This document shows, one piece after another, positions 13,593 through 34,659 of a stretch of 64,000 bases of DNA (positions are counted from its first letter, which is position 1; the number at the start of each line of letters is the position of its first letter). The stretch covers positions 3,353,501-3,417,500 of the forward strand of contig NZ_CP053708.1 of the NCBI RefSeq assembly GCF_013201075.1. The letters run 5' to 3'. The notes below the pieces were generated by a model. That model did not search any database. It worked only from the letters and a program-made list of their open reading frames with translations, and was not told the origin of the DNA. Source of the DNA: Lichenicola cladoniae (lineage in GTDB: Bacteria; Pseudomonadota; Alphaproteobacteria; Acetobacterales; Acetobacteraceae). Made by a program: the position numbers and the translations under genes.

Positions 13593-13751
13593 GCGTTGGG
13601 GCATCCGGTCCCGCACGGGATGAACGAACCGCTGTTTTTTGAGACGCGGGGGACGGTGGCCGCATGGCCCGGCAGACAGCGCGTAATTCCTTGCGAAGTC
13701 GTCATGATCGCATTATCGGTCGCCGTTCCACTTCGGCGACTCTCCTGTCAT

Positions 13752-14360
13752 ATGACCGATCCGTTCTTATTCACCGCGACGGTCCTGGCGCTGCTTGCCG
13801 TGCCGGGCCCGACCAACAGCCTGGTCGCGACCAGTGGAGCCGTCGCCGGCATCGGGCGATCGCTGAAGCTGGTACCGGCCGAAGTTGCCGGCTACCTGAT
13901 CGCGGTCATGGTGCTGGGCCTGCTGCTGCGGCCGATCATGACGGAGTTCCCCGGGCTGGCGATGGTCCTGCGCGGAGCCGTCGGCATTTATCTGCTGGGA
14001 CTTGCGGTCAAGCTGTGGCGGCAGGGCCAACGATTGACCGACCGGGACGCCGGCCCGCCCGCAGCCGAAGCGATCGGGATGACCCAGATCTTCGTCACCA
14101 CGCTGCTCAATCCCAAGGCGATCGTCTTCGCGCTCGGAATCATCCCGTTCGGAACCCGCCACCTGCCACTCTACCTGGCGGGATTCGCGGTGCTGATCGC
14201 CATCGTCGCGGCAGGCTGGAGCGTGGCCGGTGCGACGCTTGGCGGCGCGGCACATCGTCGTGGCCGAGGTCGTGTCGTGCCTCGGATCGGTGCCGCGACG
14301 ATCGGCGCGTTCGCCATCGTCATGATGCTGGGTCCGATCGTGGCACGGATGGCGCGGTAA
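13752..14360 (+). CDS. LysE family translocator
   Basis: A 202-residue inner-membrane protein with about six hydrophobic segments, of the LysE/RhtB amino-acid export family. The N-terminus MTDPFLFTATVLALLAVPGP with PGPTNSLV is the family signature, and LLNPKAIVFALG is the conserved central motif. An upstream open frame from 13596 is ignored because the family begins at this MTDPF. The exported compound is unknown. It lies just before the aryl polyene genes, in the same direction, but is separated by 81 bp and is not a usual member of such clusters. Confidence 0.85.
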   Translation: MTDPFLFTATVLALLAVPGPTNSLVATSGAVAGIGRSLKLVPAEVAGYLIAVMVLGLLLRPIMTEFPGLAMVLRGAVGIYLLGLAVKLWRQGQRLTDRDAGPPAAEAIGMTQIFVTTLLNPKAIVFALGIIPFGTRHLPLYLAGFAVLIAIVAAGWSVAGATLGGAAHRRGRGRVVPRIGAATIGAFAIVMMLGPIVARMAR

Positions 14361-14441: not shown

Positions 14442-15305
14442 ATGCGAATTCCGATCGGGCTTGCCAAAGGTCTGCCCACCACACGCCTGCACGCCTCGGG
14501 AACCAGCCCGGCAAGGTCCGGTCCGCGGTGGAGCGGCCTCCATCACGTGCGAGTATGGCATCTTCGTCTGGCGTTTGCCGTCACCGCGATCGTCGCTGCG
14601 GTCCTGGTGGTCGTGGGCAGCGTCGCCGCGCTGGCGTTGAACCAGGTGCTGGCGGATCGGCGCGGCTCGGTTGGCCGCTGGATGCTTCGGTTCGGCGCAC
14701 GGCTGGTGCTTCGGGTGGCGACGCTGACCGGTCTGCTCCGGTGCGACCTGCCGGCACTCGCGGAACTGTCCGGCCCGCACCGGCGCACCGGACTGCTGCT
14801 GGTCGCGAACCATCCATCGCGGCTCGACGCGCTGTTCATGATCGCGTCCGTGCCCGGGCTCGTCTGCGTTACAAAGGCGTCGATCTGGGACCGCACGCTG
14901 GTCGGCGCGGCCATCCGGATGTCCGGCTACCCACGGGCCGGCGACAACCGGCACCTCGCCACCGCCGCCACGGCGCTGCTCGAAGGCCGTCCGGTCCTGG
15001 TGTTTCCGGAAGGAACCCGGAGCCCGCCCGGCGGCCCCGGCCGCTTCCACCCGGGGTTCGCGTGTCTGGCGCGACAGGCACAGGTGCCGATCCAGGCGGT
15101 CATGATCGAAACCGACCCCGATTTTCTTGGGCAGAACCAGCCCCTCCTGCGCGTGCCGGCACGGCCCGTACGCATCGTCCTGCATGCCGGAGCGCGCTTC
15201 GATCCGCCGGGTAACCGGCCGGGCGATATGCGGCGGCTGGCCCTCGCGGTCGAACGGGCTTTCCATGACACGCCGGCCAGTCCGCTTCTGGAGATGGCGG
15301 CGTGA
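14442..15305 (+). CDS. PlsC-type acyltransferase at the start of the aryl polyene cluster
   Basis: A 287-residue 1-acylglycerol-3-phosphate acyltransferase-like protein with one N-terminal membrane segment. The catalytic motif HxxxxD is seen in NHPSRLD, and the acceptor-binding motif in FPEGTRS. A TTG at 14403 would add 13 residues; ATG at 14442 is used here. It overlaps the following glycosyltransferase by 4 bp. Aryl polyene loci often encode a glycosyltransferase-acyltransferase fusion (ApeJ); here the two activities appear as adjacent separate genes. Attachment of the polyene to a lipid anchor is inferred. Confidence 0.82.
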   Translation: MRIPIGLAKGLPTTRLHASGTSPARSGPRWSGLHHVRVWHLRLAFAVTAIVAAVLVVVGSVAALALNQVLADRRGSVGRWMLRFGARLVLRVATLTGLLRCDLPALAELSGPHRRTGLLLVANHPSRLDALFMIASVPGLVCVTKASIWDRTLVGAAIRMSGYPRAGDNRHLATAATALLEGRPVLVFPEGTRSPPGGPGRFHPGFACLARQAQVPIQAVMIETDPDFLGQNQPLLRVPARPVRIVLHAGARFDPPGNRPGDMRRLALAVERAFHDTPASPLLEMAA

Positions 15306-16057
15306 CCGCATCACCGACCCACCTGGTACTGATCCCGTCCTACAATACCGGGGCCCGCCTGATCGAGACGGTTCGCGAGGCCACGGCTCACTGGTCCAGT
15401 GTCTGGGTGGTGATCGACGGCAGTACCGACGGCAGCGAACGGGGGCTGGACGACGCGGCCGCTCGGCTTCCGGGCCTGCGCGTGCTCGCACTCGACCAGA
15501 ACCGGGGCAAGGGCGCGGCGATCCTGCACGGGCTGAAGCTGGCGGCGACCGCCGGCTTCACCCACGTGCTGACCATGGATGCCGACGGGCAGCATCCGGC
15601 GAACCATATCGGCCGCTTCATGGCAGCATCCCGTGCCGATCCGGCCGCGATGATCCTGGGACGCCCGGTATTCGACGAGCATGCGCCGGCGCTGCGGGTA
15701 CAGGGACGACGTATTTCCAACTGGTGGGCCAATGTCGAGACTCCCGGTTGCTCGATCGAAGACTCGCTGTTCGGCTTTCGCGTCTATCCGATCGCCGATC
15801 TCGTCGCCGTCATGGACGGTACGCGCTGGATGCGTCGTTTTGATTTCGATCCGGAGGCAGCGGTACGCCTGTGCTGGCGCGGCCTACGCTCCATCAATCT
15901 AGCGGCGCCGGTACGTTATCTGCGCGCAGATGAGGGCGGGGTCTCGCATTTTCATTATGGAAGGGACAATCTTCTGCTGGCCTGGATGCATCTTCGTCTC
16001 GTGCTCGGAGCGTTGTCACGTCTCATGAGACGCCCGCGCGGCTCCGGAATACACTGA
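15302..16057 (+). CDS. Family 2 glycosyltransferase
   Basis: A 251-residue GT-A fold glycosyltransferase. The nucleotide-sugar binding start LVLIPSYNTGARLIETV and the DxD-type motif in LTMDADGQHP are visible, as is the dolichol-phosphate-sugar-synthase-like stretch EDSLFGFRVYP. The GTG start overlaps the acyltransferase stop (GTGA), indicating translational coupling. In aryl polyene clusters a related enzyme is thought to glycosylate the lipid-linked pigment; that role is inferred. The 3' end overlaps the convergent membrane-protein gene by 35 bp. Confidence 0.88.
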   Translation: MTASPTHLVLIPSYNTGARLIETVREATAHWSSVWVVIDGSTDGSERGLDDAAARLPGLRVLALDQNRGKGAAILHGLKLAATAGFTHVLTMDADGQHPANHIGRFMAASRADPAAMILGRPVFDEHAPALRVQGRRISNWWANVETPGCSIEDSLFGFRVYPIADLVAVMDGTRWMRRFDFDPEAAVRLCWRGLRSINLAAPVRYLRADEGGVSHFHYGRDNLLLAWMHLRLVLGALSRLMRRPRGSGIH

Positions 16058-16790
16058 TTGCGACACGAAACCCGACATGCTCGAAATCGGTGATCAACCA
16101 ACGCCTGATTATATATTCGACGACGAAGATTACGATCGTGGCAGGCAGGCAGCTATCGGGCACCACGACCCACCACCAGCGGATCGGCAGCCATCCGGTT
16201 AACCCGGCACCGAGCAGGCCCACCGACAAGCAGAGCTCAGCCGCGAAGAACAGGCACCAGGCCAGAGTGACGCACCACGTGTAGGCGACGATGTCCGGGC
16301 GCAGGGAGCCGTGGATCCGGCGCGCCATTTCCGTTGCCAGCGGTTCATGGTCCGGCCGCATCGACCGTGCGAACAGCAGCAGCAGGCTCGCCTGTATCAC
16401 CGCGTGGAACAACGCTGCGTCGAGCAGGAGCACCAGCCTCGGCGGCGCCTGCGCGACGGCAAGCCAGAGCAGGATCGCCGGCAGCATCCATAGCCGGGTG
16501 CGGACCCAGCGTTCGAACGGTGCCTGAGTCGAGCCGGACCAGGCAGTGAACAGGAAAAAGAGGCCGGCCAGCTGCAGCAGGGCCAGCGCCTCGACTGCTA
16601 GCTGCGCGTAGCCGAACGCCATCGCCAGGTGGGCTGATGCGGGGGCTGCGACGAGGCAGGTTGCTCCAGCGAAACGTCGGCTCGCAATCATCCAGCCCTC
16701 GTAAGGCATTTCCAAGGCAAAGCGGTAATTCGCACCGCATACCATGTCTTTCCGAATGCCGGAATAATTGCTAGGTTCATGACGGTTCAA
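16023..16790 (-). CDS. Multispanning membrane protein of the aryl polyene cluster (COG4648-like)
   Basis: A 255-residue hydrophobic protein with about five or six membrane segments. Its composition and its place between a cluster glycosyltransferase and an ACP suggest the COG4648 membrane protein frequently found in aryl polyene loci. It is on the opposite strand, overlapping the glycosyltransferase tail by 35 bp and the ACP start by 12 bp. The start is uncertain: ATG codons at 16745, 16709 or 16691 would shorten it and remove the overlap with the ACP gene. Function unknown. Confidence 0.65.
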   Translation of the reverse strand: MNRHEPSNYSGIRKDMVCGANYRFALEMPYEGWMIASRRFAGATCLVAAPASAHLAMAFGYAQLAVEALALLQLAGLFFLFTAWSGSTQAPFERWVRTRLWMLPAILLWLAVAQAPPRLVLLLDAALFHAVIQASLLLLFARSMRPDHEPLATEMARRIHGSLRPDIVAYTWCVTLAWCLFFAAELCLSVGLLGAGLTGWLPIRWWWVVVPDSCLPATIVIFVVEYIIRRWLITDFEHVGFRVAISVFRSRAGVS

Positions 16791-17090
16791 AGACGTGAGA
16801 TAGCCTTGGATACGTCCTTCCCGACTGACCGACAGAGTTCATTCGAGCGCGAGTTGGCGGAGCTTACCGTACAGACGCTGCAGCTTGAGATCGGTGCGGA
16901 CGAGATCGACGCCATCGCTCCCCTGTTCGGAGAGGGACTGGGGCTCGACTCGATCGACGCGCTGGAGCTGTCCCTGGCCATATCCCGCCGTTATGGCGTC
17001 GAACTGAAGTCCGACGACGAACGCAACGGGGAAATCTTTTCGTCTCTTCGAAACCTCAGCGCGCATATCGCTGCCAGCCGGACCTGCTGA
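16779..17090 (+). CDS. Acyl carrier protein
   Basis: A 103-residue carrier protein with the phosphopantetheine site at Ser58 in GLGLDSIDALELS. It has about 20 extra N-terminal residues compared with a housekeeping ACP. It is the first plus-strand gene of the polyene-building operon and is followed by the ligase after 6 bp. Only this one ACP is seen in the cluster, whereas the E. coli aryl polyene cluster has two. It presumably carries the hydroxybenzoyl starter and the growing polyene. Confidence 0.9.
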   Translation: MTVQRREIALDTSFPTDRQSSFERELAELTVQTLQLEIGADEIDAIAPLFGEGLGLDSIDALELSLAISRRYGVELKSDDERNGEIFSSLRNLSAHIAASRTC

Positions 17091-17096
17091 GCCGCA

Positions 17097-18458
17097 ATGA
17101 CCGGCATCAAGCTCGTTGCCCGACCGGAGACCGTGCTGTTCCGCACCCACGCCGGCCCTTTGACCGGGTATGACCTGCTGCGGGCAGCGCATCGGCTGGC
17201 GGTCTCTATTCCGGCTGGTCCCGTCATCAATCTTTGCCGTGACCGGAGCCGTTTTACCGTTGCCCTGCTGGCCGCATTGCTACGCAATGAGACCAGCCTG
17301 CTGGTCAGCGACCGGTCACCGGAGCGATTGCGCTGGCTGCTGAACGAGCATCCGGGCGCGATCATCGTGACCGACACAGGGGAATTCGAAAGCAGGTTTC
17401 CGCACCACAGGCTCTCCGAAATTCCTTGCGATTTCCCGGGAAACGAGAACAATCCAGAAATCCCGTTGGATCGTTTGGTCGCGATCGTGTTCACGTCCGG
17501 CAGCACCGGCGCCCCGGTCGCGCACGAAAAGCGCTGGGGCGAACTCGTGCAACGCAGCCGGGCCGCCATCGCGCAGTTCGGCCTGCTGCAGGAGGACCAG
17601 CCGGAAACGATCGTGGGGACCATACCGCCGCAGCATATGTACGGGTTCGAGACCACGGTCCTGCTGCCGCTGCATACCGGCGTCGCCAGCATGTCGGTCG
17701 ATGGGTTCTACCCGGCCGACATTCGACAGGCGCTGACCGCCGCACCGGCGCCGCGGGTCCTGGTGACCACGCCGCTGCAGCTGCGGGCGCTGGTCGAAAG
17801 CGGAATCACGCTGTCGCCGCTGCGCATGGTCATTTCCGCGACCGCGCCGCTCGCCGTCGAGCTCGCGTCGCAGGCAGAGACACGCTGGAACAGTCGCGTG
17901 CAGGAAATCTACGGTGCCACCGAGATCGGCTCGATCGCCAGCCGGCGTACGGTATCCGGCGACATCTGGACGCTCTATCCGGGCATTGCCTTCCGTCCCG
18001 GCAGCGACGGCCGCACCGAAGTGGTGGCGCCGCCGGCCACGCCGCATCCGATCAGCGACATGATCGAGACCACCGGCCTCGATGGGGCCGATCTCGGTGG
18101 CTTCCGGTTGCTCGGTCGTCCCGGCGACCTGCTCAAGTTCGGTGGCAAGCGTGCTTCCCTGGCCGGGCTGAACGCCATCCTCAACAGCATCCCGGGGATC
18201 CTCGACGGCGTGTTCCATGCGCCGGACGATACCGGCCTGCGCCTCGCCCGGCGGATGCAGGTGTTCGTGGTGTCGCCCACGCGGTCGGCGGACGACCTGC
18301 TCGCCGAGCTGCGGTCGCGAATCGACCCGGCTTTCCTGCCGCGTCGCGTGGTGATGCTGGACGCCCTGCCCCGCAACGAAGTCGGCAAGATCACGCGCGA
18401 GGCGCTGGTCGGGCTGCACGAGGCGGCGGCACAACCGGCTTGCTCCCAGGCATCATGA
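17097..18458 (+). CDS. AMP-dependent ligase (aryl/acyl-ACP synthetase, ApeH-like)
   Basis: A 453-residue adenylate-forming enzyme. The P-loop is TSGSTG at 133-138, with the usual PKG replaced by PVAHEKRW. The motif EIYGATEIGSIASRR carries the YGxTE core, and the C-terminal domain ends with NEVGKITREAL, which supplies the catalytic Lys. It is inferred to activate the hydroxybenzoate made by the XanB2-like enzyme and load it on the ACP. The ATG follows the ACP stop by 6 bp, and the stop overlaps the dehydratase start (ATGA). Confidence 0.87.
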   Translation: MTGIKLVARPETVLFRTHAGPLTGYDLLRAAHRLAVSIPAGPVINLCRDRSRFTVALLAALLRNETSLLVSDRSPERLRWLLNEHPGAIIVTDTGEFESRFPHHRLSEIPCDFPGNENNPEIPLDRLVAIVFTSGSTGAPVAHEKRWGELVQRSRAAIAQFGLLQEDQPETIVGTIPPQHMYGFETTVLLPLHTGVASMSVDGFYPADIRQALTAAPAPRVLVTTPLQLRALVESGITLSPLRMVISATAPLAVELASQAETRWNSRVQEIYGATEIGSIASRRTVSGDIWTLYPGIAFRPGSDGRTEVVAPPATPHPISDMIETTGLDGADLGGFRLLGRPGDLLKFGGKRASLAGLNAILNSIPGILDGVFHAPDDTGLRLARRMQVFVVSPTRSADDLLAELRSRIDPAFLPRRVVMLDALPRNEVGKITREALVGLHEAAAQPACSQAS

Positions 18459-18769
18459 GCGGCCGCGAGCTCGGCTCGTTCGTGATCGCCGCCGATCATC
18501 CATGCCTGCCTGGACATTTCCCTGGCCGTCCCCTGGTTCCGGGCGTCGTGCTGCTGGACGAGGTGTTCGCGCTGGTCGCGGCCGATCCCGGGATGACGGG
18601 CCGCGTCGTCGGTGGCCTTGCCAACGCGAAGTTCCTCAACCCGGTCAGGGCGGACCAGCGCGTCATGGTGCGGATCGACCGGACGGTGCCGAACCGGCTC
18701 GGCTTCAGCTGCAGCGTCGCGGAGGCCGAGGTACTGACCGGCGTTCTCCTGCTGGGTGAGCCGGCGTGA
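18455..18769 (+). CDS. Hotdog 3-hydroxyacyl-ACP dehydratase (FabZ/ApeI-like)
   Basis: A 104-residue short hotdog domain. The FabA/FabZ active-site motif is H15-PCLPGHFPG (15-24), followed by RPLVPGVVLLDE. It would dehydrate 3-hydroxyacyl-ACP to make the conjugated double bonds. The catalytic Glu/Asp helix is present as the LLDE segment. The open frame runs far upstream, but the ATG at 18455 overlapping the ligase stop is the natural start. The stop overlaps the next GTG start. Confidence 0.88.
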   Translation: MSGRELGSFVIAADHPCLPGHFPGRPLVPGVVLLDEVFALVAADPGMTGRVVGGLANAKFLNPVRADQRVMVRIDRTVPNRLGFSCSVAEAEVLTGVLLLGEPA

Positions 18770-19683
18770 GCCAGGCGATCGTGTCCGGCTGGATGCGCCC
18801 GGAACGCGGTGGGCCATCGCTGTGCCGCCTGATGCTGTGGGTGACGCTGCGATTCGGCTGGCCGGTCGGGCAGGCGCTGTTGCCGTTGATCACCGCTTAT
18901 TTCCTGGCCACCGGATCGGACGCGCGTGCGGCGTCGCGCAGCTATCTCGGCCGCGCTCTCGGGCGCCGGCCTAACCTCTTTGACGTGGCGCGGCACTTCC
19001 ACAGTTTCGCCAGCACCACCCTCGATCGCGTGTTCCTGCTGTCCGACCGGAGCGACCGATACCGGATCACCATCGAGGGCAAGGACGTGCTCGCGCAGGC
19101 CCTGTCGCTGGGCCGCGGCTGCATCCTGCTCGGAGCCCATGTCGGTTCGTTCGAGGTTCTGCGCAGCATCGGACGGCACTCGCCGATGACGGTGAAGGTG
19201 CTGATGTTCCGGGGCAATGCCGGCGCCGCGAGCGCGCTGCTGGAACAGCTCGATCCGGGCTTCCTGGACAGCGTGATCGAGATCGGCACGCCGGGCGCCA
19301 TGCTGCAGGTCGGCGAGAGCCTGGCGCGTGGCGAACTGGTCGGCATGCTGGGCGACCGTGCGCCGCGCGGCGAGAAGACCATCCCGGTCGAGTTCCTGGG
19401 CGCTCCGGCGCTGCTTCCCGCGGGGCCCTTGCTGGTCGCGGCGATGCTGCACGCGCCGGTGGTGCTGTTCCATGGCGTGCGCACCGGTCGGCGCCGGTAC
19501 GTGGTCGGATTCGAGCCGTTCGCCGACGAGATCGTGCTGCCGCGCGGCCGGCGCGACGCCGCGTTGCAGGGCTGGGTCCAGCTCTATGCCGGCCGGATCG
19601 AGGCGCTGTGTCGCGCCTATCCGTTCAGCTGGTTCAATTTCCATGATGTCTGGGCGCCGATCCCGTCGAGTACGCGACCATGA
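18766..19683 (+). CDS. LpxL/HtrB-like acyltransferase (COG4261 type)
   Basis: A 305-residue acyltransferase of the lauroyl/myristoyl transferase superfamily with the HxxxxE catalytic motif at H125-VGSF-E130. An N-terminal hydrophobic segment at about 33-50 anchors it to the inner membrane. COG4261 acyltransferases are standard members of aryl polyene clusters, where they are thought to help attach the polyene or a fatty acid to the lipid anchor. The GTG start overlaps the dehydratase stop, and its own stop overlaps the next ATG. Confidence 0.87.
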   Translation: MSQAIVSGWMRPERGGPSLCRLMLWVTLRFGWPVGQALLPLITAYFLATGSDARAASRSYLGRALGRRPNLFDVARHFHSFASTTLDRVFLLSDRSDRYRITIEGKDVLAQALSLGRGCILLGAHVGSFEVLRSIGRHSPMTVKVLMFRGNAGAASALLEQLDPGFLDSVIEIGTPGAMLQVGESLARGELVGMLGDRAPRGEKTIPVEFLGAPALLPAGPLLVAAMLHAPVVLFHGVRTGRRRYVVGFEPFADEIVLPRGRRDAALQGWVQLYAGRIEALCRAYPFSWFNFHDVWAPIPSSTRP

Positions 19684-20249
19684 GGCACGTCCTGTTCGCG
19701 GTCGCTCTGCTGCTTGCCGGCGCTTCGGCCCCTGCCCTGGCGGACGATCTTGCCGACAGCGTGCTGCAGCGGCTGGCGCAGGTCACCTCGCGGCACGCCA
19801 CGTTCCACGAGGAGAAGCATCTGGCGGCCCTCACCACCGTGCTCCGCTCATCCGGCACTTTGGCGTATGCGCAGCCAGCCTATCTCGAAAAGATCACCCT
19901 CGAGCCGAAGCCGGAACGGCTGGTGATCAACGGCGCCTCGCTCAGCATCACCGAGGGCAGTGCAGCTCCGCGAACGTTCGACATCGACAGCCATCCCGCC
20001 CTGCGCGCCCTGGTCGATACCATCCGTGCGCCGCTCGACGGCGACGTCGAGACGCTGCGCCGCAGCTACACGATCCAGGCGCAGGGCGATCTCGGGGCGT
20101 GGCGGCTGACGCTGCTGCCGAGCCATCCGGAGCTCGCACGCTTCGTGCGCAGCGTCATGCTCGACGGCGCCAACAACGGCCTGCGCACCATCCGCATCGA
20201 GCGGCCGAATGGCGACGTACAGACGACGACCATCGACCCGGTGCCGTGA
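19680..20249 (+). CDS. LolA-like outer-membrane carrier protein
   Basis: A 189-residue periplasmic protein with a signal peptide (VALLLAGASAPALA). The mature part has the LolA-type start (QRLAQVTSRHATFHEEKHL) expected for a half-barrel lipid carrier. Aryl polyene clusters encode such a protein next to the MMPL exporter, probably to move the pigment lipid across the periplasm. It is translationally coupled on both sides (ATGA upstream, GTGA downstream). Confidence 0.87.
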   Translation: MRHVLFAVALLLAGASAPALADDLADSVLQRLAQVTSRHATFHEEKHLAALTTVLRSSGTLAYAQPAYLEKITLEPKPERLVINGASLSITEGSAAPRTFDIDSHPALRALVDTIRAPLDGDVETLRRSYTIQAQGDLGAWRLTLLPSHPELARFVRSVMLDGANNGLRTIRIERPNGDVQTTTIDPVP

Positions 20250-22576
20250 GCGCCGGGTCCGGCCGGCGCCCCTGGCCGATCGCGGTGATGCTGGCCCTGT
20301 CAGGGCTGATCGCGATCCTGGTGTTCCGCGCCGTGCCGCTGCGCACCGACATGGCGGACTTCCTGCCGCAAGGCCGCACCGAGGCCGCGCGCTTCATGCT
20401 CGACGAGTTGCACGGCGGGGCGGCGTCGAGCCTGATCCTGGTCGGCATCGAGAACGCGCCGGCGGCCACGCTCGCCCGGATCAGCAGCGCCGTGACCGGC
20501 ACGCTGCAAGGCTCGGGCCTGTTCAGCCTGGCCAGCAATGGCACGCAGGCGCTGGACGGTCCGGACCAGGCGCTGTTGTTTCGCAACCGCTACCTGCTCT
20601 CGCCGGCCGCGGTGCCCGGCGCATTCACCGCACCTGCCCTGAATGCCGACCTGTCGGCGCTGCTCGACCAGATGCAATCCTCGGCCGAACCGCTGGCACA
20701 GGCCTATGGCCTGGCCGATCCGACCGGGGCATTCCTGGGGCTGGTCCGCGCATGGGGTAGCGGCACGCGGCTGCGCACCGAGAACGGCGTCTGGTTCGCA
20801 GCCGGCCGCGATCGGGCGATGATCCTGCTGCGAACCCGCGCCGGCGGGATGGATATCGCGGCACAGACCGAGGTCGACCGGACCATCCGCACCGCGTTCG
20901 CGGCGGCATCGCCCGGGCAGGCCAGGCTGCTGGCATCCGGCCCGGCCGTGTTCGCACGTGCCGCCGCGCATTCGATCCGCGGCGATATCGAGATGCTGTC
21001 GATCGTGTCGACGGTGCTGGTCGCACTGGTGCTGGTCTGGCGATTCCGGTCGCCGTGGGTGCTGGCCACGATCGCGATCCCGGTGCTGCTGTCGCTGAGT
21101 GCGGCGATGCTGGTGGTGCAGGCGGTGTTCGGCTTCGTGCATGGGGTGGCGTTCGGGTTCGGCATGACCATGCTGGGGGTGACGCTGGATTATCCGGTGC
21201 TGCTGATCGGCCATCGCGACCGGGGCGAGGCCGCGACCGGCACGTTGCGCCGGATCGGCCCGACCCTCAGGCTTGCAGTGCTCACTGCAGCGCTCGGCCT
21301 GACCGGGATGATTTTCTCGGGCTTTCCGGGGCTGGCGCAGCTCGGCCTGTTCTCGGCGGTCGGAATCGTCACGGCGGCCGCGGTGACGCTGTGGCTGCTG
21401 CCGAGGCTGATCGTGGCTGCCGACCTGGCACCACTACCACCCGGTGATCCGGGCCGGCTGCTCCGTGTGGAGGCGCTGCGCCGCGGCCGGGCCTGGGCGA
21501 TCGTTCCGGTGGCGGGCGCCGTCGCCCTTCTGGTCCTGAGACCGCCGCATGGCGAGACCGACCTGGCGGCGATGAGCCCGGTGCCGAAAGCCGACCGGAT
21601 GCTCGACGCCGAGCTGCGCGCCGACCTGGGTGCGCCGGATGCCGGACAGGTGGTGATCGTGCGTGCCCCGACCGCCGACGCCGTGCTGGTCCGCGAGGAG
21701 ACGCTGATCCCGGTCCTGGACCGGCTGCAAGCGAAGGGCGCGATCGGCGGCACGGAGCTGGCGGCACGGATCATCCCGAGCCTCGCCACCCAGCGCCGCC
21801 GCCAGCAGGCGCTTCCCGATTCTGCGAGCCTGCGGGCGCGGTTGACCGAGGCACAGGCGGGGCTGCCGTTCCAACCGGACGCATTCGCGCCGTTCCTGGC
21901 CGACATCGAACGCTCCCGGTCGATGCAGCCGATGATGCAAGCCAGCCTCGACACGCCGATGCTGGCCGCCCGGCTGCAGCCGCTGCTGTTCGCCCGCGAC
22001 GGCGGCTGGGTCGGGCTGGTCCTGCCGACCGGAGTGGCCGATCCGGCGGCGCTCGCCGGCGCCATGCACGGACAGGAGGGCGTGATGCTGCTCGACATGC
22101 ATCGCGAAGCCAGCGCCCTGGTGCTGGCGGACACGCGGCGGGCCTGGCACTGGCTGGCCTATGGCGGGATGCTGGCATTCGCCGCGCTGGCGTTCGGACT
22201 GCGCGACCTGCGCCGGCTGGCCCGGGTGCTCGGCGCGGTCTCGGCTGCCCTGCTGGTCACCCTGGCGGCGCTGTCGGCGAGCGGGGTCGGGCTGTCGCTG
22301 ATCCACATCGTCTCGCTGCAGTTCGTGGCGGGGATCGGGCTCGACTACGCGCTGTTCTTCGCCCGGCCCCAGCTCGACCGGGCCGAGCGCGCCCGCACCT
22401 TGCGGACGCTGGTGACCTGCAACACCATGACGCTGCTGACCTTCGGCCTGCTGGCGTTCTGCCGAACGCCGATCCTGCACGATATCGGCTTCACCGTTGC
22501 CATCGGGGCGATCCTGGCCATGGGCTTCAGCTTCCTGCTTGCCGCACCACCCCGCACCCGGTCGGATCCCGCCTGA
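20246..22576 (+). CDS. MMPL/RND-type exporter
   Basis: A 776-residue membrane exporter. It has the two-fold RND pattern: one N-terminal segment, a large periplasmic loop (about 30-240) and a bundle of segments (about 250-400), repeated in the second half. Charged residues near segment 4 suit proton-driven transport. Homologues in aryl polyene clusters (ApeM) are thought to flip or export the lipid-linked pigment. The GTG at 20246 overlapping the LolA-like stop is chosen; the frame is open far upstream but that part lies inside the previous genes. The ketosynthase follows without a gap. Confidence 0.9.
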   Translation: MSAGSGRRPWPIAVMLALSGLIAILVFRAVPLRTDMADFLPQGRTEAARFMLDELHGGAASSLILVGIENAPAATLARISSAVTGTLQGSGLFSLASNGTQALDGPDQALLFRNRYLLSPAAVPGAFTAPALNADLSALLDQMQSSAEPLAQAYGLADPTGAFLGLVRAWGSGTRLRTENGVWFAAGRDRAMILLRTRAGGMDIAAQTEVDRTIRTAFAAASPGQARLLASGPAVFARAAAHSIRGDIEMLSIVSTVLVALVLVWRFRSPWVLATIAIPVLLSLSAAMLVVQAVFGFVHGVAFGFGMTMLGVTLDYPVLLIGHRDRGEAATGTLRRIGPTLRLAVLTAALGLTGMIFSGFPGLAQLGLFSAVGIVTAAAVTLWLLPRLIVAADLAPLPPGDPGRLLRVEALRRGRAWAIVPVAGAVALLVLRPPHGETDLAAMSPVPKADRMLDAELRADLGAPDAGQVVIVRAPTADAVLVREETLIPVLDRLQAKGAIGGTELAARIIPSLATQRRRQQALPDSASLRARLTEAQAGLPFQPDAFAPFLADIERSRSMQPMMQASLDTPMLAARLQPLLFARDGGWVGLVLPTGVADPAALAGAMHGQEGVMLLDMHREASALVLADTRRAWHWLAYGGMLAFAALAFGLRDLRRLARVLGAVSAALLVTLAALSASGVGLSLIHIVSLQFVAGIGLDYALFFARPQLDRAERARTLRTLVTCNTMTLLTFGLLAFCRTPILHDIGFTVAIGAILAMGFSFLLAAPPRTRSDPA

Positions 22577-23779
22577 ATGCAGCCGCTCGAGATCACCGCC
22601 GGAACCGCGATCAGCGCCATGGGTCGCGGCGTCGACGCGACACTGGACGCGCTCCGCACCCGCCGCTCCGGTCTGCGGCCGACCGATTTCGGCGGTATTG
22701 CCGAGGGCCATATCGGCCGGGTCGATGGCGTAGAGGCGCATGCGCTGCCGGCCGCCCTGGCCAAATACGACTGCCGCAACAACCGGCTCGCGGACATGGC
22801 CCTAAATACGGATGGCTTTTCCTCGGCCGTTGCCGAGGCGCGCGCGCATTACGGCGCCGATCGCGTGGCGGTGGTGCTCGGCACCAGCACGTCCGGCATC
22901 CTTTCCGGCGAGGATGCCTATCGCGATCGCGACCCGGACACCGGCCGGCTGCCGGCCGGCTTCGACCACGAGCACACGCAAGACCTGTTCTCGCTGGCGC
23001 GCTACGTCCGCGCGGTTCTCGACCTGCGTGGTCCGGCTTTCGTGGTATCGACCGCCTGCGCGTCGGCTTCCAAAAGCTTCATCGACGCACACCATCTGAT
23101 CGAGGCCGGCGTGTGCGACGCGGCCGTGGTCGGCGGTGCCGACAGCCTGTGCCGCATGACGATGCGCGGCTTCGCGGCGCTGGAACTGATCTCGCCCTCG
23201 CCCTGCCGCCCGTGCGACGCGGCCCGCACCGGCATTTCCATCGGCGAAGCGGCTGGTTTCGCACTGCTGGAGAGATCCGGCGCAAGACCGGCCGGTTCGC
23301 AATCCGGGATCCGTGCCAGCATGCTCGGCCATGGCGCCAGCAGCGACGGGCACCACATGTCGTCGCCGCATCCGCGCGGGGAAGGCGCGATCCTGGCGAT
23401 GCGGCAGGCGCTCGCCCGCGCCGGACTGGAGCCGGGCGCGATCGACTACATCAACCTGCACGGCACCGGCACGCGCGCCAACGATGCGATGGAGGATGTC
23501 GCGGTGACGGAGCTGTTCGGGGCTGCCACGGACTGCTCGTCGACCAAGGGCTGGACCGGCCACACGCTCGGCGCATCCGGGATCCTGGAAACGATGATTG
23601 CCGCCCTGTGCATCACCCACGGCTTCAAGCCGGGCTGTCTCGGCGTGTCCCAAGTCGACCCGGCATTCCGGTCCAAGGTCCTGTTCGATAACCTGGAAGG
23701 GCCGGTGCACCGGGTCATGAGCAACTCGTTCGGCTTCGGCGGCATCAACTGCAGCCTGATCTTCGGGCCGGCCGCATGA
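22577..23779 (+). CDS. Beta-ketoacyl-ACP synthase
   Basis: A 400-residue ketosynthase of the FabF type with a complete active site: Cys161 in STACASA, His295 in NLHGTGT, Lys324 and His329 in TKGWTGHTLGASG. It extends the polyene with malonyl-ACP units. It begins directly after the exporter stop and overlaps the next gene by 4 bp. It is the only catalytic ketosynthase seen in the cluster, so it probably does all the elongation together with its partner. Confidence 0.93.
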   Translation: MQPLEITAGTAISAMGRGVDATLDALRTRRSGLRPTDFGGIAEGHIGRVDGVEAHALPAALAKYDCRNNRLADMALNTDGFSSAVAEARAHYGADRVAVVLGTSTSGILSGEDAYRDRDPDTGRLPAGFDHEHTQDLFSLARYVRAVLDLRGPAFVVSTACASASKSFIDAHHLIEAGVCDAAVVGGADSLCRMTMRGFAALELISPSPCRPCDAARTGISIGEAAGFALLERSGARPAGSQSGIRASMLGHGASSDGHHMSSPHPRGEGAILAMRQALARAGLEPGAIDYINLHGTGTRANDAMEDVAVTELFGAATDCSSTKGWTGHTLGASGILETMIAALCITHGFKPGCLGVSQVDPAFRSKVLFDNLEGPVHRVMSNSFGFGGINCSLIFGPAA

Positions 23780-24594
23780 TGCGGGTGTTCGTGTCCGGCG
23801 TGTCGGTCTGGGGGCCGGGCCTTGCCGGCTGGGAGATGGCGCGGACGGTGCTGCGCGGCGCGCAGCCCTGGACCGAAGAGGAGACGATGCCACCGGCGCC
23901 GTCGATTCTGGCCGCCAACGAGCGCCGGCGCACGAGCCCGGTGGTTCGGCTGGCGCTTGCCGTGGCGCAGGAGGCGACAGCCATGTCCGGGCATGAGCCG
24001 GCAAGCCTGCACAGCGTGTTCGGCAGCTCGAACGGCGACGGCGTGGTGGTCAACGACATCCTGCAGGCACTGGCCGAACCCGGCCGCGACGTGTCGCCGA
24101 CGCAGTTCCACAACTCGGTGCACAACGCCGCCGCCGGCTACTGGACCATCGGCGCCGGCACCCGTCAGCCGGCGAGCTGCCTCGGCTGCCACGATGCGAC
24201 CATGGGGTTATCCCTGCTGAAGGCCGCCGCCGAGGTGCATGTCGAGCAGGTGTCGGTGTTGCTGTGCGTCTATGACCGGCCGCTGCCCGAGCCGATGGCG
24301 GAGAAGCGCCCGACCACCAGCGCCTTCGCCTGCGCTCTGGTGCTGACCCCGGAGCAGGAACCGGGCAGCATCGCCTCGCTCGCCGTACGCTATCGCCCCG
24401 ATCTTGCCGATCCAGCTCTCGAGGCTCCGAGACGGGAGGCGTTGCAGGCGCTTTATGTCGGTAACGCCGCTGCCCGCGCGCTGCGGCTGCTGGAGAGCCT
24501 GGCGACGCAGCGTCCCGACCGGATCGAGCTGTCCTGCCTCGACCAGAGTATCGAAATCATCGTGACGCCATGCTCGACCGCGCCGGCATCCTGA
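23776..24594 (+). CDS. Beta-ketoacyl synthase-like protein without catalytic Cys (chain-length factor-like)
   Basis: A 272-residue protein matching the N-terminal ketosynthase-like family (PF13723 type): FVSGVSVWGPGLAGWEMA at the start and the conserved SPTQFHNSVHNAAAGYW. The Cys-His-His set of a working ketosynthase is not seen; a Cys is present in CLGCHDATMG, but not in the usual context. Such proteins pair with the catalytic ketosynthase in aryl polyene clusters. The start overlaps the ketosynthase stop by 4 bp, and the 3' end overlaps the dehydratase by 25 bp. Confidence 0.83.
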   Translation: MMRVFVSGVSVWGPGLAGWEMARTVLRGAQPWTEEETMPPAPSILAANERRRTSPVVRLALAVAQEATAMSGHEPASLHSVFGSSNGDGVVVNDILQALAEPGRDVSPTQFHNSVHNAAAGYWTIGAGTRQPASCLGCHDATMGLSLLKAAAEVHVEQVSVLLCVYDRPLPEPMAEKRPTTSAFACALVLTPEQEPGSIASLAVRYRPDLADPALEAPRREALQALYVGNAAARALRLLESLATQRPDRIELSCLDQSIEIIVTPCSTAPAS

Positions 24595-25004
24595 GCCTGA
24601 TCCCGCACGGGGGCGCAAGCTGCCTGCTGGACCGGGTCGAGGCGTGGTCGCCCGGCATGGTTCGCTGCACGACCCTGGCACATCTCGATCCCGGCAACGT
24701 GCTGCGCCGGGCCGGCCGCCTCGGCACGATCTGCGGCGTCGAGATGGGGCTGCAGGCCGCAGCCCTGCATGGTGCGATGTGCGGCGGCAAGGCCCCGAGC
24801 CGGCCGGGCTACCTGGCGTCGCTCCGCGCGGTGCAGTTCGCAACCGGGCGGCTCGACGATCCCGGCCACGGCATGCTGACCGTCACCGCGATTCTCGAGC
24901 ACGGCGACGAACGTGCGCTGGCCTACGGTTTCGACGTGCAGTCGGCTACCGGGGCATCGCTGGTCAGCGGCCGCGCGATCGTGGTCCTGCAGGCCGGATC
25001 ATGA
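24570..25004 (+). CDS. Hotdog dehydratase (ApeP-like)
   Basis: A 144-residue hotdog protein of the COG4706 (3-hydroxydecanoyl-ACP dehydratase-like) group. LIPHGGASCLLDRVEAW resembles the FabZ/ApeP active-site strand, with His13 as the likely catalytic base. It is the second dehydratase of the cluster, so the two may act as a heterodimer as in described aryl polyene systems. It starts 25 bp inside the previous gene and overlaps the ketoreductase by 4 bp. Confidence 0.82.
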   Translation: MLDRAGILSLIPHGGASCLLDRVEAWSPGMVRCTTLAHLDPGNVLRRAGRLGTICGVEMGLQAAALHGAMCGGKAPSRPGYLASLRAVQFATGRLDDPGHGMLTVTAILEHGDERALAYGFDVQSATGASLVSGRAIVVLQAGS

Positions 25005-25720
25005 GGCGCGCGCTGGTGACCGGCGGATCGAGCCCGCTCGGCCACGCGATCTGCGAGCGCTTCGCCGGCGACGGGCTGCACGTGATCGTCCATGCGAATA
25101 CGTCCCTGGCCCGGGCGGACGAAGTCGTTGCCGGGATCCGGGCCGCGGGCGGTTCGGCCGAGGCGTTCGGCTGCGACCTGACCGACATCGCCGGCACCGA
25201 GATCGCGCTGGCGCCGGTACTGGCGGCCGGCGTACCGCACGTGATCGTTCATAATGCGGGCACGCACGACGATGTGCCGCTTGCCGGCATGTCCGAGCAG
25301 CAATGGCGCCAGGTGCTGGCGGTGTCGCTGGACGGGTTCTTTGCGATCACCCGGCCGCTGCTGCTGCCGATGATGGCCACCCGGTCGGGCCGGATCATCG
25401 CGATCTCGTCGGTGTCCGCGCTGATGGGCAACCGCGGCCAGGTCAATTACGCCGCCGCCAAGGCGGGGCTGATCGGGGCGGTGAAATCGCTGGCGCGCGA
25501 GGTCGCCAGCCGCGGCATCACCGTGAACACGGTGGCGCCGGGGGTCATCGCGTCGCCCGCGGTGAGCGCGGTGATGGATGCGAAACAGATCGCGCAGATC
25601 GTGCCGATGAAGCGGGCCGGACGGCCGGAAGAGGTGGCCGATCTGGTCGCGTTCCTGGCCTCCGACCAGGCCGGCTATATCACCGGACAGACCATTTCGA
25701 TCAACGGCGGAATGGCGTAG
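25001..25720 (+). CDS. 3-oxoacyl-ACP reductase (FabG/ApeQ-like)
   Basis: A 239-residue short-chain dehydrogenase. The NADPH glycine motif is TGGSSPLGHAI, the catalytic Ser is in ISSVSAL, and Tyr and Lys are in NYAAAKAG. The family C-terminus GYITGQTISINGGMA is intact. It reduces the 3-keto group in each round of polyene extension. The ATG at 25001 overlaps the dehydratase stop. It is the last gene of the tightly coupled run; the halogenase follows after 54 bp. Confidence 0.93.
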   Translation: MRRALVTGGSSPLGHAICERFAGDGLHVIVHANTSLARADEVVAGIRAAGGSAEAFGCDLTDIAGTEIALAPVLAAGVPHVIVHNAGTHDDVPLAGMSEQQWRQVLAVSLDGFFAITRPLLLPMMATRSGRIIAISSVSALMGNRGQVNYAAAKAGLIGAVKSLAREVASRGITVNTVAPGVIASPAVSAVMDAKQIAQIVPMKRAGRPEEVADLVAFLASDQAGYITGQTISINGGMA

Positions 25721-25774
25721 CCGGCCGCTGCCTGATATCGTTTCATCGATGTCCGGACCTCGAAGGACCGATCG

Positions 25775-27094
25775 ATGAGCCACATGACCCAGCATCGGGA
25801 GAACCTGCCTTCCATGCAGGTCGAGCCGTGCGACGTGCTGGTGATCGGTGGCGGACCGGCCGGTGCGACGGCGGCGGCGCTGCTGGCGGAACAAGGCCGC
25901 GACGTGGTCATGCTGGAAAAGGATGCGCATCCCCGCTTCCATATCGGCGAAAGCCTGCTGCCGCGTAACGTGCCGATTCTGGAACGTCTCGGCGTTGCCG
26001 ATGCCGTGCACGAGGTCGGGGTGTTCAAGCGCGGCGCCGAGTTCGTGTCCGATGCATGCGGGCGTACGGTCGCGTTCCCGTTCGCGCTCGGGCTGAACAA
26101 GGACTATGTGCACAGCTACCAAGTGAAGCGCGCCGATTTCGACACGATCCTGTTCCGGAACGCCGAGCAGAAAGGCGCCCGTGCGTTTGAAAATGCGCGC
26201 GTGACCGACATTGGATTCGCCGAGAACGGGTGCGGCACGCGTGTGACGGTGCAGGGTCCCGATGGCGAGACCAGGGTATTCGCGCCTCGCTTCGTGCTCG
26301 ACGCCTCCGGGCGCGACACGTTCCTGGCCAGCCGTTTCGGGGCCAAGGAAAGCGACAAGCAGAACTCCACTGCGGCGGTGTTCGCGCATTATCGGGGTGC
26401 CGCGTTCCGCACCGGCGACACCGAGGGCTACATCACCGTGCATCTGGTCGATGATGGCTGGTTCTGGATGATCCCGTTGCCGGGCGACATCATGAGCGTC
26501 GGCTTCGTCGGCAACCAGTCAGCCTTCAGGAACCGCATCGGCAGCCCGCAGGACCTGCTGATGGCGCGGATCGAGGCCAGTCCGAGCGTCAGTGCGCGCA
26601 TGCGGAACGCCGAACGCGTGTCCGAGGTCAGCACCACCGGCAACTACTCGTATCGGGCCGGCGCATCCTGGGGGGAAGGATATGTCATGATCGGCGACTC
26701 GTTCGCCTTCCTGGACCCGGTTTTTTCCTCCGGCGTGCTGCTGGCGATGACGGCGGCGGAACGTGGCGTCGACGTCGCGACAGCCTGGCTCGATAACCCG
26801 AAGGCGGGCCGCCTGGCTGCGCGCCGGATGGAGCGGCGCACGCGTCGCGAGTTGAACAACATCGCGTGGCTGATCTATCGTATCAACACGCCCGTCATGC
26901 GCGAAATGTTCATGAACCCGCAGAACATGTTCCGCATGCGCGACGGCCTGATCTCGATCCTCGCCGGCAATCTGGGTGGCGGGATACGGGCACGGTTGCC
27001 TGTGCTCGCGTTCAAGACCGCCTTCACCGCCCTGTCGTTTAAACATCGCGCCCGCGCACGCCGCGATGCACCGGTGCCGGTCGCCGCCGAATAG
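25775..27094 (+). CDS. Flavin-dependent halogenase
   Basis: A 439-residue FAD enzyme. The FAD-binding motif is GGGPAGAT (25-32). The two halogenase signatures are present: WxWxIP as WFWMIP (229-234) and FxxPxxSSG as FLDPVFSSG (312-320). Lys85 in VFKRGAEF is a good candidate for the catalytic Lys that forms the chloramine. It probably halogenates the phenolic head of the aryl polyene on the carrier protein, as in xanthomonadins, which are brominated. AAGGA lies upstream of the ATG. It converges on the lipoprotein gene with a 1-bp gap. Confidence 0.88.
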   Translation: MSHMTQHRENLPSMQVEPCDVLVIGGGPAGATAAALLAEQGRDVVMLEKDAHPRFHIGESLLPRNVPILERLGVADAVHEVGVFKRGAEFVSDACGRTVAFPFALGLNKDYVHSYQVKRADFDTILFRNAEQKGARAFENARVTDIGFAENGCGTRVTVQGPDGETRVFAPRFVLDASGRDTFLASRFGAKESDKQNSTAAVFAHYRGAAFRTGDTEGYITVHLVDDGWFWMIPLPGDIMSVGFVGNQSAFRNRIGSPQDLLMARIEASPSVSARMRNAERVSEVSTTGNYSYRAGASWGEGYVMIGDSFAFLDPVFSSGVLLAMTAAERGVDVATAWLDNPKAGRLAARRMERRTRRELNNIAWLIYRINTPVMREMFMNPQNMFRMRDGLISILAGNLGGGIRARLPVLAFKTAFTALSFKHRARARRDAPVPVAAE

Positions 27095-27095
27095 A

Positions 27096-28403
27096 TCAGC
27101 CGTTCGGCGATGGCGGCGTTGCAAGGCCCGCCGCGACCCGCGCACTTTGAGCATCGATGTATGCATAGAATTGCCGGTAGAAGGCCGGGAAATCATTCGG
27201 TGACCGCGCGAGTACCGGATGATGGACCCGCCACCAGTCCAGCGGCTTCCGCTCGGCCTGGATGCGTGCGTAGAGCGACGCGAAATAGGCGAGGTTCGTC
27301 CTGAGGTCGTGATAACGCGGCTGGCTCTGGAACCGATCGAAATTGGGCCGGTAGGAGCCAAGGATCGGATCGTCGTAGAAGATCAGTTGCAGGCTGGTAT
27401 TGTAGATATCGTTGTCCCGCCGGGGACCTTCGGACTCGGTGATAGAGCCCGGCTGCGTGGCAAGCCAGTCGCTCCGCATCAGGGTCCGCCGTGCACCGGC
27501 GTCATGGAACAGCGCCGCCAGGTCGGTCAGGGGCAGTTCGTTGGTCCGCTGCATCAGGTTGACGTATTCGTTCTTCGGGACCGGGAAACTGAATGCCGAG
27601 ATCAGAAGCGGACGGTTTATCTTCCACTCGTTCCACACCCCGGCCGCCGCCAGCGCATTATGGGTCAGGTGGGTGCAATTATCCTTCAGCACGTTCCATA
27701 CGAACGGTGTCCGGCCATCGCGATAGACCGCGTTGCGGTCATTGAGAAACCCGACCATCCGCGTCATCTGGTCCTGAGTCAGCGGAACCCGCGAGCAGTA
27801 TCGCCCCCGCCCGAAATCGACCGCATAATCGGTCGAGACCGACATCTCGTACATCCAGTCGCGACGCGAGATCGCCGCCGGCTTGCCCTCGAAGACCCGG
27901 TCATGGAACACGACGCCGTCGAGAATGCCGAGCGCTTCCGCCTGCTTCTGGGTTTCGGTATAGACCGCGCGCGTCAGGCGCTGGCCGGGCTTCAGGGTGC
28001 CGTCGAAAAAGAACGCACTGCGTTCGGTGGCGATCCAGTTGGCGTTGCGGTAATGCGCGTTGACACTCAGCCCGACCCCGTCGGGATGATCCGCGATGCT
28101 GGTGTCGCACATTTTCAGGACCGGATAATGCGCGTCGTGCTCCAGGCAGACGCCACTCAGGAACAGGACCGAGTGCCCGCCGGGGCCGCCGCTGATGTCG
28201 GGCCCGAACCCGGGCTTCTTGCGGATCTGCGACACCGCGCACAACTCGGCATAAAGTGGAAACATCGACTGGTACAACGGCTTCGCCGTGATCGGTCCCG
28301 GCGTATCGAAGTTCGATGCGCTGCAGGCCGACAGAAAGGACAGGGCAAGCGCACCCGCCAGCCGAGTTCTCATCGCGCGCCGCATCGTCTCCGGCCGGGT
28401 CAT
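27096..28403 (-). CDS. Exported lipoprotein, NlpC/LRAT-like or DUF4105-like, coupled to the chorismatase
   Basis: A 435-residue protein with a lipoprotein signal: a basic N-terminus, then LALSFLSAC with lipobox LSAC near residues 24-27. The mature part contains GGHSVLFLSGVCLE and WNVLKDNCTHLTHNALA. Such His- and Cys-containing motifs are seen in papain-like or DUF4105-type periplasmic proteins, so a Cys peptidase or acyltransferase activity is possible. Its ATG overlaps the stop of the chorismatase (ATGA), so the two are co-translated. ATG codons at 28385 or 28373 are alternative starts. I do not recognise its exact function. Confidence 0.65.
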   Translation of the reverse strand: MTRPETMRRAMRTRLAGALALSFLSACSASNFDTPGPITAKPLYQSMFPLYAELCAVSQIRKKPGFGPDISGGPGGHSVLFLSGVCLEHDAHYPVLKMCDTSIADHPDGVGLSVNAHYRNANWIATERSAFFFDGTLKPGQRLTRAVYTETQKQAEALGILDGVVFHDRVFEGKPAAISRRDWMYEMSVSTDYAVDFGRGRYCSRVPLTQDQMTRMVGFLNDRNAVYRDGRTPFVWNVLKDNCTHLTHNALAAAGVWNEWKINRPLLISAFSFPVPKNEYVNLMQRTNELPLTDLAALFHDAGARRTLMRSDWLATQPGSITESEGPRRDNDIYNTSLQLIFYDDPILGSYRPNFDRFQSQPRYHDLRTNLAYFASLYARIQAERKPLDWWRVHHPVLARSPNDFPAFYRQFYAYIDAQSARVAAGLATPPSPNG

Positions 28404-29374
28404 GCCGGCTGTCGTCGTCGCTTGAGCCGGCAGACCGCCTCTATCTCCACCAGCAGCTCCGGCCGGCAGATATCCGCCTCCAGCCAGACCATCCGGTCCG
28501 GCGCAGCCATCGTCTCGAGGCGCTCCGCGACGGCAGCGCGATCGAGGCCGCGGCGCAGGTAGATCTTGAGTTGTCGCACCTCGTCCATCTCGAAGCCCTG
28601 GGCGCCGCACTCGCCGAAGATGGCGTGCAGGTTGCGCATGACCTCGTCGGTCTGCGCCGCCACGTCGCCGGGATGCAGGCTTTCGTGCGACACGATGCTT
28701 GCGGTGCCGGACACCAGCAGGACCGGCTGGCCGGCCTCCGGATCGGCGATCGTGGCCCGGGCGAACAGGGGCGGAGCCGCGCCGTAGGCTTGCGGATAAT
28801 GGTAGGCGCTGACCTGCCGAGGATTCTCGATGCGCAGAGAACCGGTCGAGGAAGCCAGGAAATAGACGCGCAGCTTCGAGCCGCCGGTCCCGAGCGCCGA
28901 GGCGGCCGGGGCCGATCGCGGGTCGATGCCGGCGGCGGCGAAGGCGGTTCCCCGGCCGGCATTGAAAAGCCGGTATCGTTCCTCGCCTGCCTGCAGCGCG
29001 GTGATGTCCGGAACGTAGTTGTACAGCCGGATCAGGTTCGGGCATCCGGCCCGGCCGATGACGCTGAACAGGCACGTATACAGGTCACGCGTGATCGCTT
29101 CGATTTCGGGTCCGGCCTCGACCGAGATCGCGCCGAACAGCAATCCATCACCCGCCGCCAGCGAGAAACCCTGTTCCTCGTATAGGGTCACAGGACCGGT
29201 GCACGTCCAGGCCTCGAAGCAGGACGGCCGGTCGGTGGCCAGCGACCGGAGCGGCAAGTCGAGGCGGACGGCGCGCAGCCCGACCGGCAGCTCATGTCCG
29301 AAGGCGATCACGCCGAGAAGCGGATCGGCCACGCCGGCCAGATCGGCCTCGCTCAGGAACTGCACTGCAAACAT
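28400..29374 (-). CDS. xanB2: XanB2-like chorismatase (hydroxybenzoate synthase)
   Basis: A 324-residue protein resembling XanB2/FkbO-type chorismatases, which cleave chorismate to 3- or 4-hydroxybenzoate plus pyruvate. Two related halves with a RidA-like fold are suggested: the middle has ITRDLYTCLFSVIGRAGCPN and the C-terminus has QTDEVMRNLHAIFGECG and VRQLKIYLRRG. The frame is open to 29635, but the ATG at 29374 (MFAVQFLSEADL) gives the family length. No aromatic ammonia-lyase is seen in the cluster, so this enzyme is the likely source of the aryl starter. It is minus-strand, coupled to the downstream lipoprotein. Confidence 0.83.
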   Translation of the reverse strand: MFAVQFLSEADLAGVADPLLGVIAFGHELPVGLRAVRLDLPLRSLATDRPSCFEAWTCTGPVTLYEEQGFSLAAGDGLLFGAISVEAGPEIEAITRDLYTCLFSVIGRAGCPNLIRLYNYVPDITALQAGEERYRLFNAGRGTAFAAAGIDPRSAPAASALGTGGSKLRVYFLASSTGSLRIENPRQVSAYHYPQAYGAAPPLFARATIADPEAGQPVLLVSGTASIVSHESLHPGDVAAQTDEVMRNLHAIFGECGAQGFEMDEVRQLKIYLRRGLDRAAVAERLETMAAPDRMVWLEADICRPELLVEIEAVCRLKRRRQPA

Positions 29375-33271: not shown

Positions 33272-34657
<1,386 letters not shown>

Positions 34658-34659
34658 GA

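Follow-up and report, generated by a model that had tools for sequence, protein, structure and literature searches.

The window analysed here is a stretch of 64,000 nucleotides, positions 3353501-3417500 of contig C1 in a 6.06 Mb genome, and our subject is the gene cluster that occupies positions 14442-29374 of it. This region holds a complete set of genes for an aryl polyene (APE), together with a homologue of the flavin-dependent halogenases and a chorismatase. We consider it very probable that the region is a complete APE cluster of the xanthomonadin/arcuflavin type, by which a yellow, membrane-bound pigment would be made and exported along the route proposed below. A first-pass annotation of the DNA had named this combination of genes, and the family matches in Table 1 bear it out.

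Gene content and order of the locus

Gene calls rest on open frames and start codons, gene names on profile matches to Pfam and NCBIfam at an E-value limit of 0.001. The ketosynthase and its partner, the acyl carrier protein (ACP), the AMP-ligase, the ketoreductase (KR) and a dehydratase are all present, as are the LolA-like carrier and the MMPL exporter; a second dehydratase is assigned from its place only. What puts the cluster with the xanthomonadin/arcuflavin type, in line with the likeness to xanthomonadin first suggested, is the linked chorismatase (PF21168), and the same linkage is seen in named relatives. The plus-strand run spans 14442-27094, with many genes overlapping by a few bases; the exporter, for instance, begins with a GTG that overlaps the LolA stop. 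On the minus strand lie the gene for a COG4648-like membrane protein and the lipoprotein and chorismatase genes, the latter two facing the halogenase. The lower limit, 14442, is the ATG of acyltransferase 1, and the upper limit, 29374, is the likely start of the chorismatase.

Table 1. Genes of the APE cluster and its flanks (positions in the window; scores in bits with model cut-offs).
Feature	Positions	Strand	Basis
Acyltransferase 1, PlsC-like	14442-15305	+	PF01553 61, cut-off 23; linked in other APE clusters
Glycosyltransferase family 2 (GT2)	15302-16057	+	PF00535 72.6
COG4648/ApeG-like membrane protein	16023-16745	-	start inferred; divergent from ACP; named by place
ACP	16779-17090	+	NF006617 114, cut-off 70
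AMP-ligase	17097-18458	+	PF00501 67.5, cut-off 29.9
Dehydratase 1, FabA/FabZ-like	18455-18769	+	PF07977 25.3, cut-off 23
Acyltransferase 2, LpxL-like	18766-19683	+	PF03279 35.9, cut-off 22.3
LolA-like periplasmic carrier	19680-20249	+	PF19574 70, cut-off 23
MMPL/RND exporter	20246-22576	+	PF03176 54, cut-off 20.5
APE ketosynthase	22577-23779	+	NF006618 510.5, cut-off 407
Ketosynthase partner, chain-length-factor-like	23776-24594	+	PF13723 100.6, cut-off 25
Second dehydratase (putative)	24570-25004	+	conserved place only
KR	25001-25720	+	NF004200 328, cut-off 273
Flavin-dependent halogenase homologue, APE-linked clade	25775-27094	+	PF04820 107.8, cut-off 21
Lipoprotein, uncharacterised, His...Asn-Cys pattern	27096-28403	-	homologue alignment; ATG overlaps chorismatase stop
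Chorismatase, FkbO/Hyg5/XanB2 superfamily	28400-29374	-	PF21168 103, cut-off 27; TIGR04444 222, cut-off 325
LysE-type gene, flanking, outside cluster	13683-14357		
ArsB-like gene, flanking, outside cluster	29872-31140		

Some of the assignments need a comment. The genes named in the first-pass inventory are there, the second dehydratase with the reservation just given, but the COG4648-like gene and the lipoprotein gene had been overlooked. The second dehydratase has no Pfam or NCBIfam match at the limit used, and its gene is kept in the APE clusters of the family at 39-55% identity. The COG4648/ApeG-like protein likewise has no match in either collection; it owes its name to analogy with ApeG of Escherichia coli (PMC8253772), and a partial homologue adjoins the ACP gene in five loci of the family. 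(Published accounts are cited by accession, and what we say of them refers to the parts of their text that were available.) GT2 is 59-69% identical to its counterpart in most of the APE loci that have one, and lower in a few. Outside the cluster, a long minus-strand frame at 33272-36079 resembles a sigma-54 response regulator in its C-terminal half; Pfam gives no match for its first 470 residues, and this part of the frame, as drawn, may be non-coding.

The host is an alphaproteobacterium, as had been supposed, of the order Acetobacterales; the assignment was made through two relatives that could be matched to named records, Acidisoma sp. L85 and Lichenicoccus roseus (30 of 39 and 25 of 39 sampled 100-mers identical, with only partial overlap of the two stretches). 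NCBI places Acidisoma in the Acidocellaceae and Lichenicoccus in the Acetobacteraceae, whereas the genome tool places both, and the window, in one family.

Distribution and relation to known pigment clusters

Many genomes have homologous clusters with much the same gene order, so a chance grouping of genes is not at issue. Nearly the whole set, the chorismatase included, is found in Acidisoma sp. L85 (G130) and Lichenicoccus roseus (G086). The host family was sampled in 200 genomes: 72 have the ketosynthase (E up to 1e-80), 68 the halogenase homologue (E up to 1e-60) and 65 both. Three genomes have the halogenase homologue and no ketosynthase match: in one (G017) the ketosynthase is cut by a contig end, and the other two (G039 and G163) are fragmented drafts of 1240 and 600 contigs. 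The two genes are far apart in some genomes, for example by about 850 kb in G062. At four loci (L049, L054, L055 and L060), homologues 57-63% identical to that of the window lie away from the APE ketosynthase of the genome. A strong chorismatase match, taken as one above 130 bits, was present in 10 of the 200 genomes, 8 of them with the ketosynthase.

The survey was widened to the class in 385 genomes, the host's own included. Of these, 28 have the ketosynthase (E up to 1e-110), 6 the chorismatase (E up to 1e-25) and 5 both. Four genomes outside the host family carry ketosynthase, chorismatase and halogenase, three of one family (G213, G345 and G443) and one of another (G243); in all four the halogenase and GT2 genes stand beside the chorismatase gene, and in G345 and G243 the ketosynthase gene is on a separate contig. 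A third sample was a named collection, the best 80 of 306 chorismatase relatives with up to 10 kb of DNA on each side and often less, in which an APE ketosynthase was counted above 42% identity and a halogenase above 35%. Within the DNA covered, 36 of these 80 loci have the ketosynthase, 38 the halogenase and 22 both; for the 51 of the best 80 that have 6 kb or more on each side, the counts are 29, 25 and 18, and in six of these 51 the APE genes number fewer than two. Halogenase, chorismatase, acyltransferase and GT2 stand in a row in many loci titled as betaproteobacterial. The samples overlap in places: L066 and L076 are the loci of G130 and G086, and L075 is one contig of G345.

The cluster is of a known kind, and its combination of genes is not rare. 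The first-pass annotation had set the combination apart from the E. coli type, in what looked like an alphaproteobacterium; as an oddity it finds no support. Chorismatase and halogenase occur together in the gene set for arcuflavin (PMC3949708), they accompany the ketosynthase in those 22 loci, and all three genes recur in the four alphaproteobacterial genomes of two other families. With the arcuflavin genes of Azoarcus sp. BH72 the cluster shares the chorismatase (arcB), halogenase (arcA), AMP-ligase, ACP, beta-ketoacyl synthase, reductase and dehydratases, and also LolA, acyltransferases, a glycosyltransferase and an exporter (PMC3949708). The Azoarcus genes form two unlinked clusters, whereas there is one here; no methyltransferase or dialkylresorcinol genes were recognised in 14442-29374, no search aimed at them having been made in the cluster or the genome. 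The Xanthomonas xanthomonadin cluster has type II polyketide synthase genes, a chorismatase (xanB2) and a halogenase in common with ours (PMC3691225, PMC3949708); it comes from another bacterial class and is likened to ours by gene content, not by sequence. The APE clusters with a “probable halogenase” described in Acetobacteraceae (PMC8776678) are of the same kind and from the same or a neighbouring family, but the available part of that account mentions neither a chorismatase nor a lipoprotein. Finally, the ape genes of E. coli share the core and the ApeG-, LolA- and exporter-like genes; their predicted starter is 4-hydroxybenzoate, and the gene table, in the part available, has neither halogenase nor chorismatase (PMC8253772).

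Several results weigh against our reading of the cluster. The co-occurrence tests ignore kinship. Seven of the 72 ketosynthase genomes (G002, G015, G019, G082, G113, G161 and G167) have no halogenase match at the threshold, and only 8 of the 72 have a strong chorismatase match; conversely, two of the ten genomes with a strong chorismatase (G032 and G081) have no APE ketosynthase match. At the thresholds applied, none of the four genes for ketosynthase, halogenase, chorismatase and lipoprotein has a match in three congeners of the host (G056, G132 and G181). UbiC, moreover, is absent from all 72 ketosynthase genomes. Since only 8 of the 72 have a strong chorismatase and none has UbiC, most relatives would obtain their starter by another route, and the chorismatase may be an addition.

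Proposed pathway and the aryl starter

The individual steps, the product and the roles of the genes we infer from characterised relatives; studies of Azoarcus, Lysobacter and E. coli have demonstrated or put forward functions for XanB2/ArcB, ArcT and the APE core (PMC3949708, PMC3691225, PMC8253772). The chorismatase would convert chorismate to 3-hydroxybenzoate, perhaps also to 4-hydroxybenzoate, and the AMP-ligase would load this starter onto the ACP. The ketosynthase and its partner, the ketoreductase and the two dehydratases would extend it to the aryl polyene, which the acyltransferases and GT2 would attach to a lipid. The halogenase homologue would act within the pathway, most likely on the aryl head, halogenation itself being putative. 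The MMPL exporter, the LolA-like carrier and probably the lipoprotein would then move the product to the outer membrane, where the pigment would shield against light and oxidants. For these genes what we observed are their content, homology, order and co-occurrence.

The identity of the chorismatase bears directly on the first step. TIGR04444 does not discriminate here, since none of the 200 family genomes or the 385 class genomes reaches its cut-off; the window's enzyme falls short as well. Gly223, Cys303 and Glu310 correspond to G240, C327 and E334 of Hyg5, where FkbO has Ala, Ala and Glu, and Gly, Cys and Glu at these positions are common to all 88 sequences compared. Gly164, Gly231 and Cys318 of Nat-hyg5 have been described as marks of the Hyg5 subfamily (PMC7170507); they translate to Hyg5 positions 173, 240 and 327 by way of the stated match of Glu325 to Glu334. 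At position 173 there is Gly in both Hyg5 and FkbO and Ala in 78 of the 88 sequences, the window's included, so that the latter has two of the three marks. The residues speak against an FkbO-type enzyme. The chorismatase may belong with XanB2, although the comparison covered Hyg5 and FkbO, not XanB2 itself, and the XanB2 type, which yields both 3- and 4-hydroxybenzoate, cannot be told from sequence (PMC3949708). The predicted product is 3-hydroxybenzoate, with 4-hydroxybenzoate uncertain.

Would such an enzyme serve another pathway in the first place? XanB2 also supplies 4-hydroxybenzoate for ubiquinone in Xanthomonas (PMC5069965), and the host genome has no match to UbiC (PF04345) or PF01947, as one would expect if the chorismatase mainly fed ubiquinone synthesis and its place beside the APE genes were secondary. 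We think this improbable: three congeners have neither a chorismatase nor a UbiC match, and the chorismatase gene overlaps by 4 bases a lipoprotein gene that tracks the APE genes. Even less can be said for a flexirubin-like cluster with a tyrosine starter. The LolA-like carrier (against the LolA2 model NF053544) and the KR do match flexirubin models, below cut-off, but the only PF00221 homologue of the genome (L042, G000:C1:4368003-4369328) scores 152 bits against the tyrosine ammonia-lyase FlxA, whose cut-off is 700, and lies about 1 Mb from the cluster, and on this ground the flexirubin reading, in our estimate an extremely remote one, was rejected. The supply of an aryl starter from chorismate to the APE pathway is the reading we retain. 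The PF00221 homologue passes the Pfam cut-off (384.5 bits against 27.3) and falls below that of all 8 NCBIfam models it matches, histidine ammonia-lyase among them (336 against 524). It reads GSLGEADL at the site where the canonical motif of ammonia-lyases is, we assume, Ala-Ser-Gly, and it adjoins an ornithine-cyclodeaminase-like gene, named by eye. The first-pass annotation had used the lack of an aromatic ammonia-lyase as a contrast with the E. coli type, which was misplaced: 4-hydroxybenzoate is the predicted starter of the E. coli cluster (PMC8253772), and the lyase is a feature of flexirubin clusters (NCBIfam FlxA).

Only 4 of the 200 family genomes have UbiC, and a source of 4-hydroxybenzoate is, by the same survey, likewise not evident in the 72 with the APE ketosynthase. 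Divergent chorismatase-like proteins of about 400 residues (L012-L029, 31-66 bits) occur in 18 of the 200 genomes; in three of them (L012, L016 and L018) SGTAS and CRPxWLVEVEG can be read. As a general starter enzyme of the family they find no support, the ketosynthase being present in 10 of the 18 (Fisher p 0.06). Still weaker matches, of 20-27 bits, occur in fifteen further genomes.

The halogenase homologue and the lipoprotein

By its PF04820 score and its conserved residues the halogenase homologue belongs to the family of the flavin-dependent halogenases. Sixty-two rows were collected for alignment, five without a clear N-terminal motif were dropped, and the window's protein was added, giving 58, or 52 once exact repeats had been removed. 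Lys85, W229, W231 and P234 are identical in all 58; the motifs GxGxxG and WxWxIP and the conserved lysine we take to be signatures of these enzymes. The window's protein is one of 19 sequences of its own family that form a clade (support 0.998), and one sequence each from an Acidocella, an Elstera and a Rhodospirillales metagenome is grouped instead with the other, mainly betaproteobacterial, sequences. One APE cluster has two tandem homologues (L043:3357-6010), 49% and 55% identical to the window's. The homologue probably serves the APE pathway, because 65 of the 68 halogenase genomes have the ketosynthase even where the genes lie apart, and this co-occurrence is the best evidence for its pathway.

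Whether the product is halogenated is uncertain, because arcuflavin was judged a nonbrominated aryl-heptaene although arcA is in its cluster (PMC3949708). That case also lends weight to a product without halogen, the homologue being then a flavin oxygenase, such as a hydroxylase of the head group, or a halogenase idle for want of bromide. The phylogeny points the same way: in a midpoint-rooted FastTree the 52 APE-linked sequences form one clade (support 0.83) and the five solved proteins, to which the window's is 30-35% identical, fall outside it. The best solved matches by score are 8zop (“Halogenase”), 3nix (“Flavoprotein/dehydrogenase”) and 3e1t (“Halogenase”), and the homologue is hit, below cut-off, by flavin monooxygenase and reductase models as well. 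On the other hand, among the invariant residues is a lysine that also stands at the aligned position in the five solved proteins; and Xanthomonas has the gene and a brominated pigment, whereas Lysobacter, without the gene, shows no bromine pattern (PMC3691225). We rate the non-halogenated product a serious contender, somewhat short of an even chance.

At E 0.001 the lipoprotein is matched by neither Pfam nor NCBIfam. A lipobox-like stretch (LSAC) stands at its N-terminus, and the overlap of its ATG with the chorismatase stop is 4 bases. With an E-value limit of 1e-15, 29 of the 200 family genomes have it, and 28 of these carry the APE ketosynthase as well (Fisher p 1.4e-13, kinship ignored); the twenty-ninth is G017, with its truncated ketosynthase. 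In 15 of the 29 it lies on the same contig within 12 kb of the ketosynthase or halogenase, and in 14 elsewhere or on other contigs. Its gene is directly upstream of the ketosynthase in six family genomes (G010, G018, G019, G053, G105 and G167); in three alphaproteobacterial genomes of other families it stands between MMPL and ketosynthase, and in a fourth it adjoins MMPL at a contig end. In E. coli, ApeN lies between ApeM and ApeO, that is, in the slot before the ketosynthase (PMC8253772). ApeN is a DUF3261 LolB-like protein, and a further lipoprotein, ApeA, opens that cluster; the likeness to our lipoprotein is one of slot only.

With residues numbered from base 28382, His70, Asn235-Cys236, His238, His241, Cys48 and Cys92 are kept in all 25 distinct homologues aligned; homologues are seen at L147-L165, L075, L134, L175, L176 and L180. 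This His...Asn-Cys pattern we read as that of a permuted papain-like thiol enzyme. Remote homology gives hints only: the lipoprotein scores 13.2 bits against an Lnb_N (PF13387) cut-off of 22.2, three of 18 members of its family match Lnb_N at E up to 1, and hhalign of the family with four Lnb_N proteins gives a probability of 30%, with a weak alignment over the Asn-Cys region. The family profile found one chance-level match only (E 0.97) among PDB sequences, and a structure prediction from three sequences, with a mean pLDDT of 38, was too poor to test the fold. We offer only tentatively, as an unlikely idea, that the lipoprotein might be a new dedicated APE component: a thiol acyltransferase or hydrolase of the outer membrane, built around a permuted papain-like site and remotely akin to Lnb, that would take the polyene lipid from the LolA-like carrier, fix or release its acyl chain, and so do the job of ApeN by another fold. 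The open-licence literature in PMC yielded no paper that joins aryl polyene with chorismatase, DUF4105 or Acidisoma, the spelling “arylpolyene” being outside the search.

With this locus, the reach of a known pigment pathway is widened to include members of the Acetobacterales. Judged by the UbiC and chorismatase families, the aryl starter of most of the 72 APE genomes is without a recognised source. Acidisoma sp. L85 and Lichenicoccus roseus, the named relatives with nearly the same set, bear on two further matters: the true reaction of the conserved “halogenase” that tracks the pathway across the family, and the way in which aryl polyene lipids get to the outer membrane and are fixed there.

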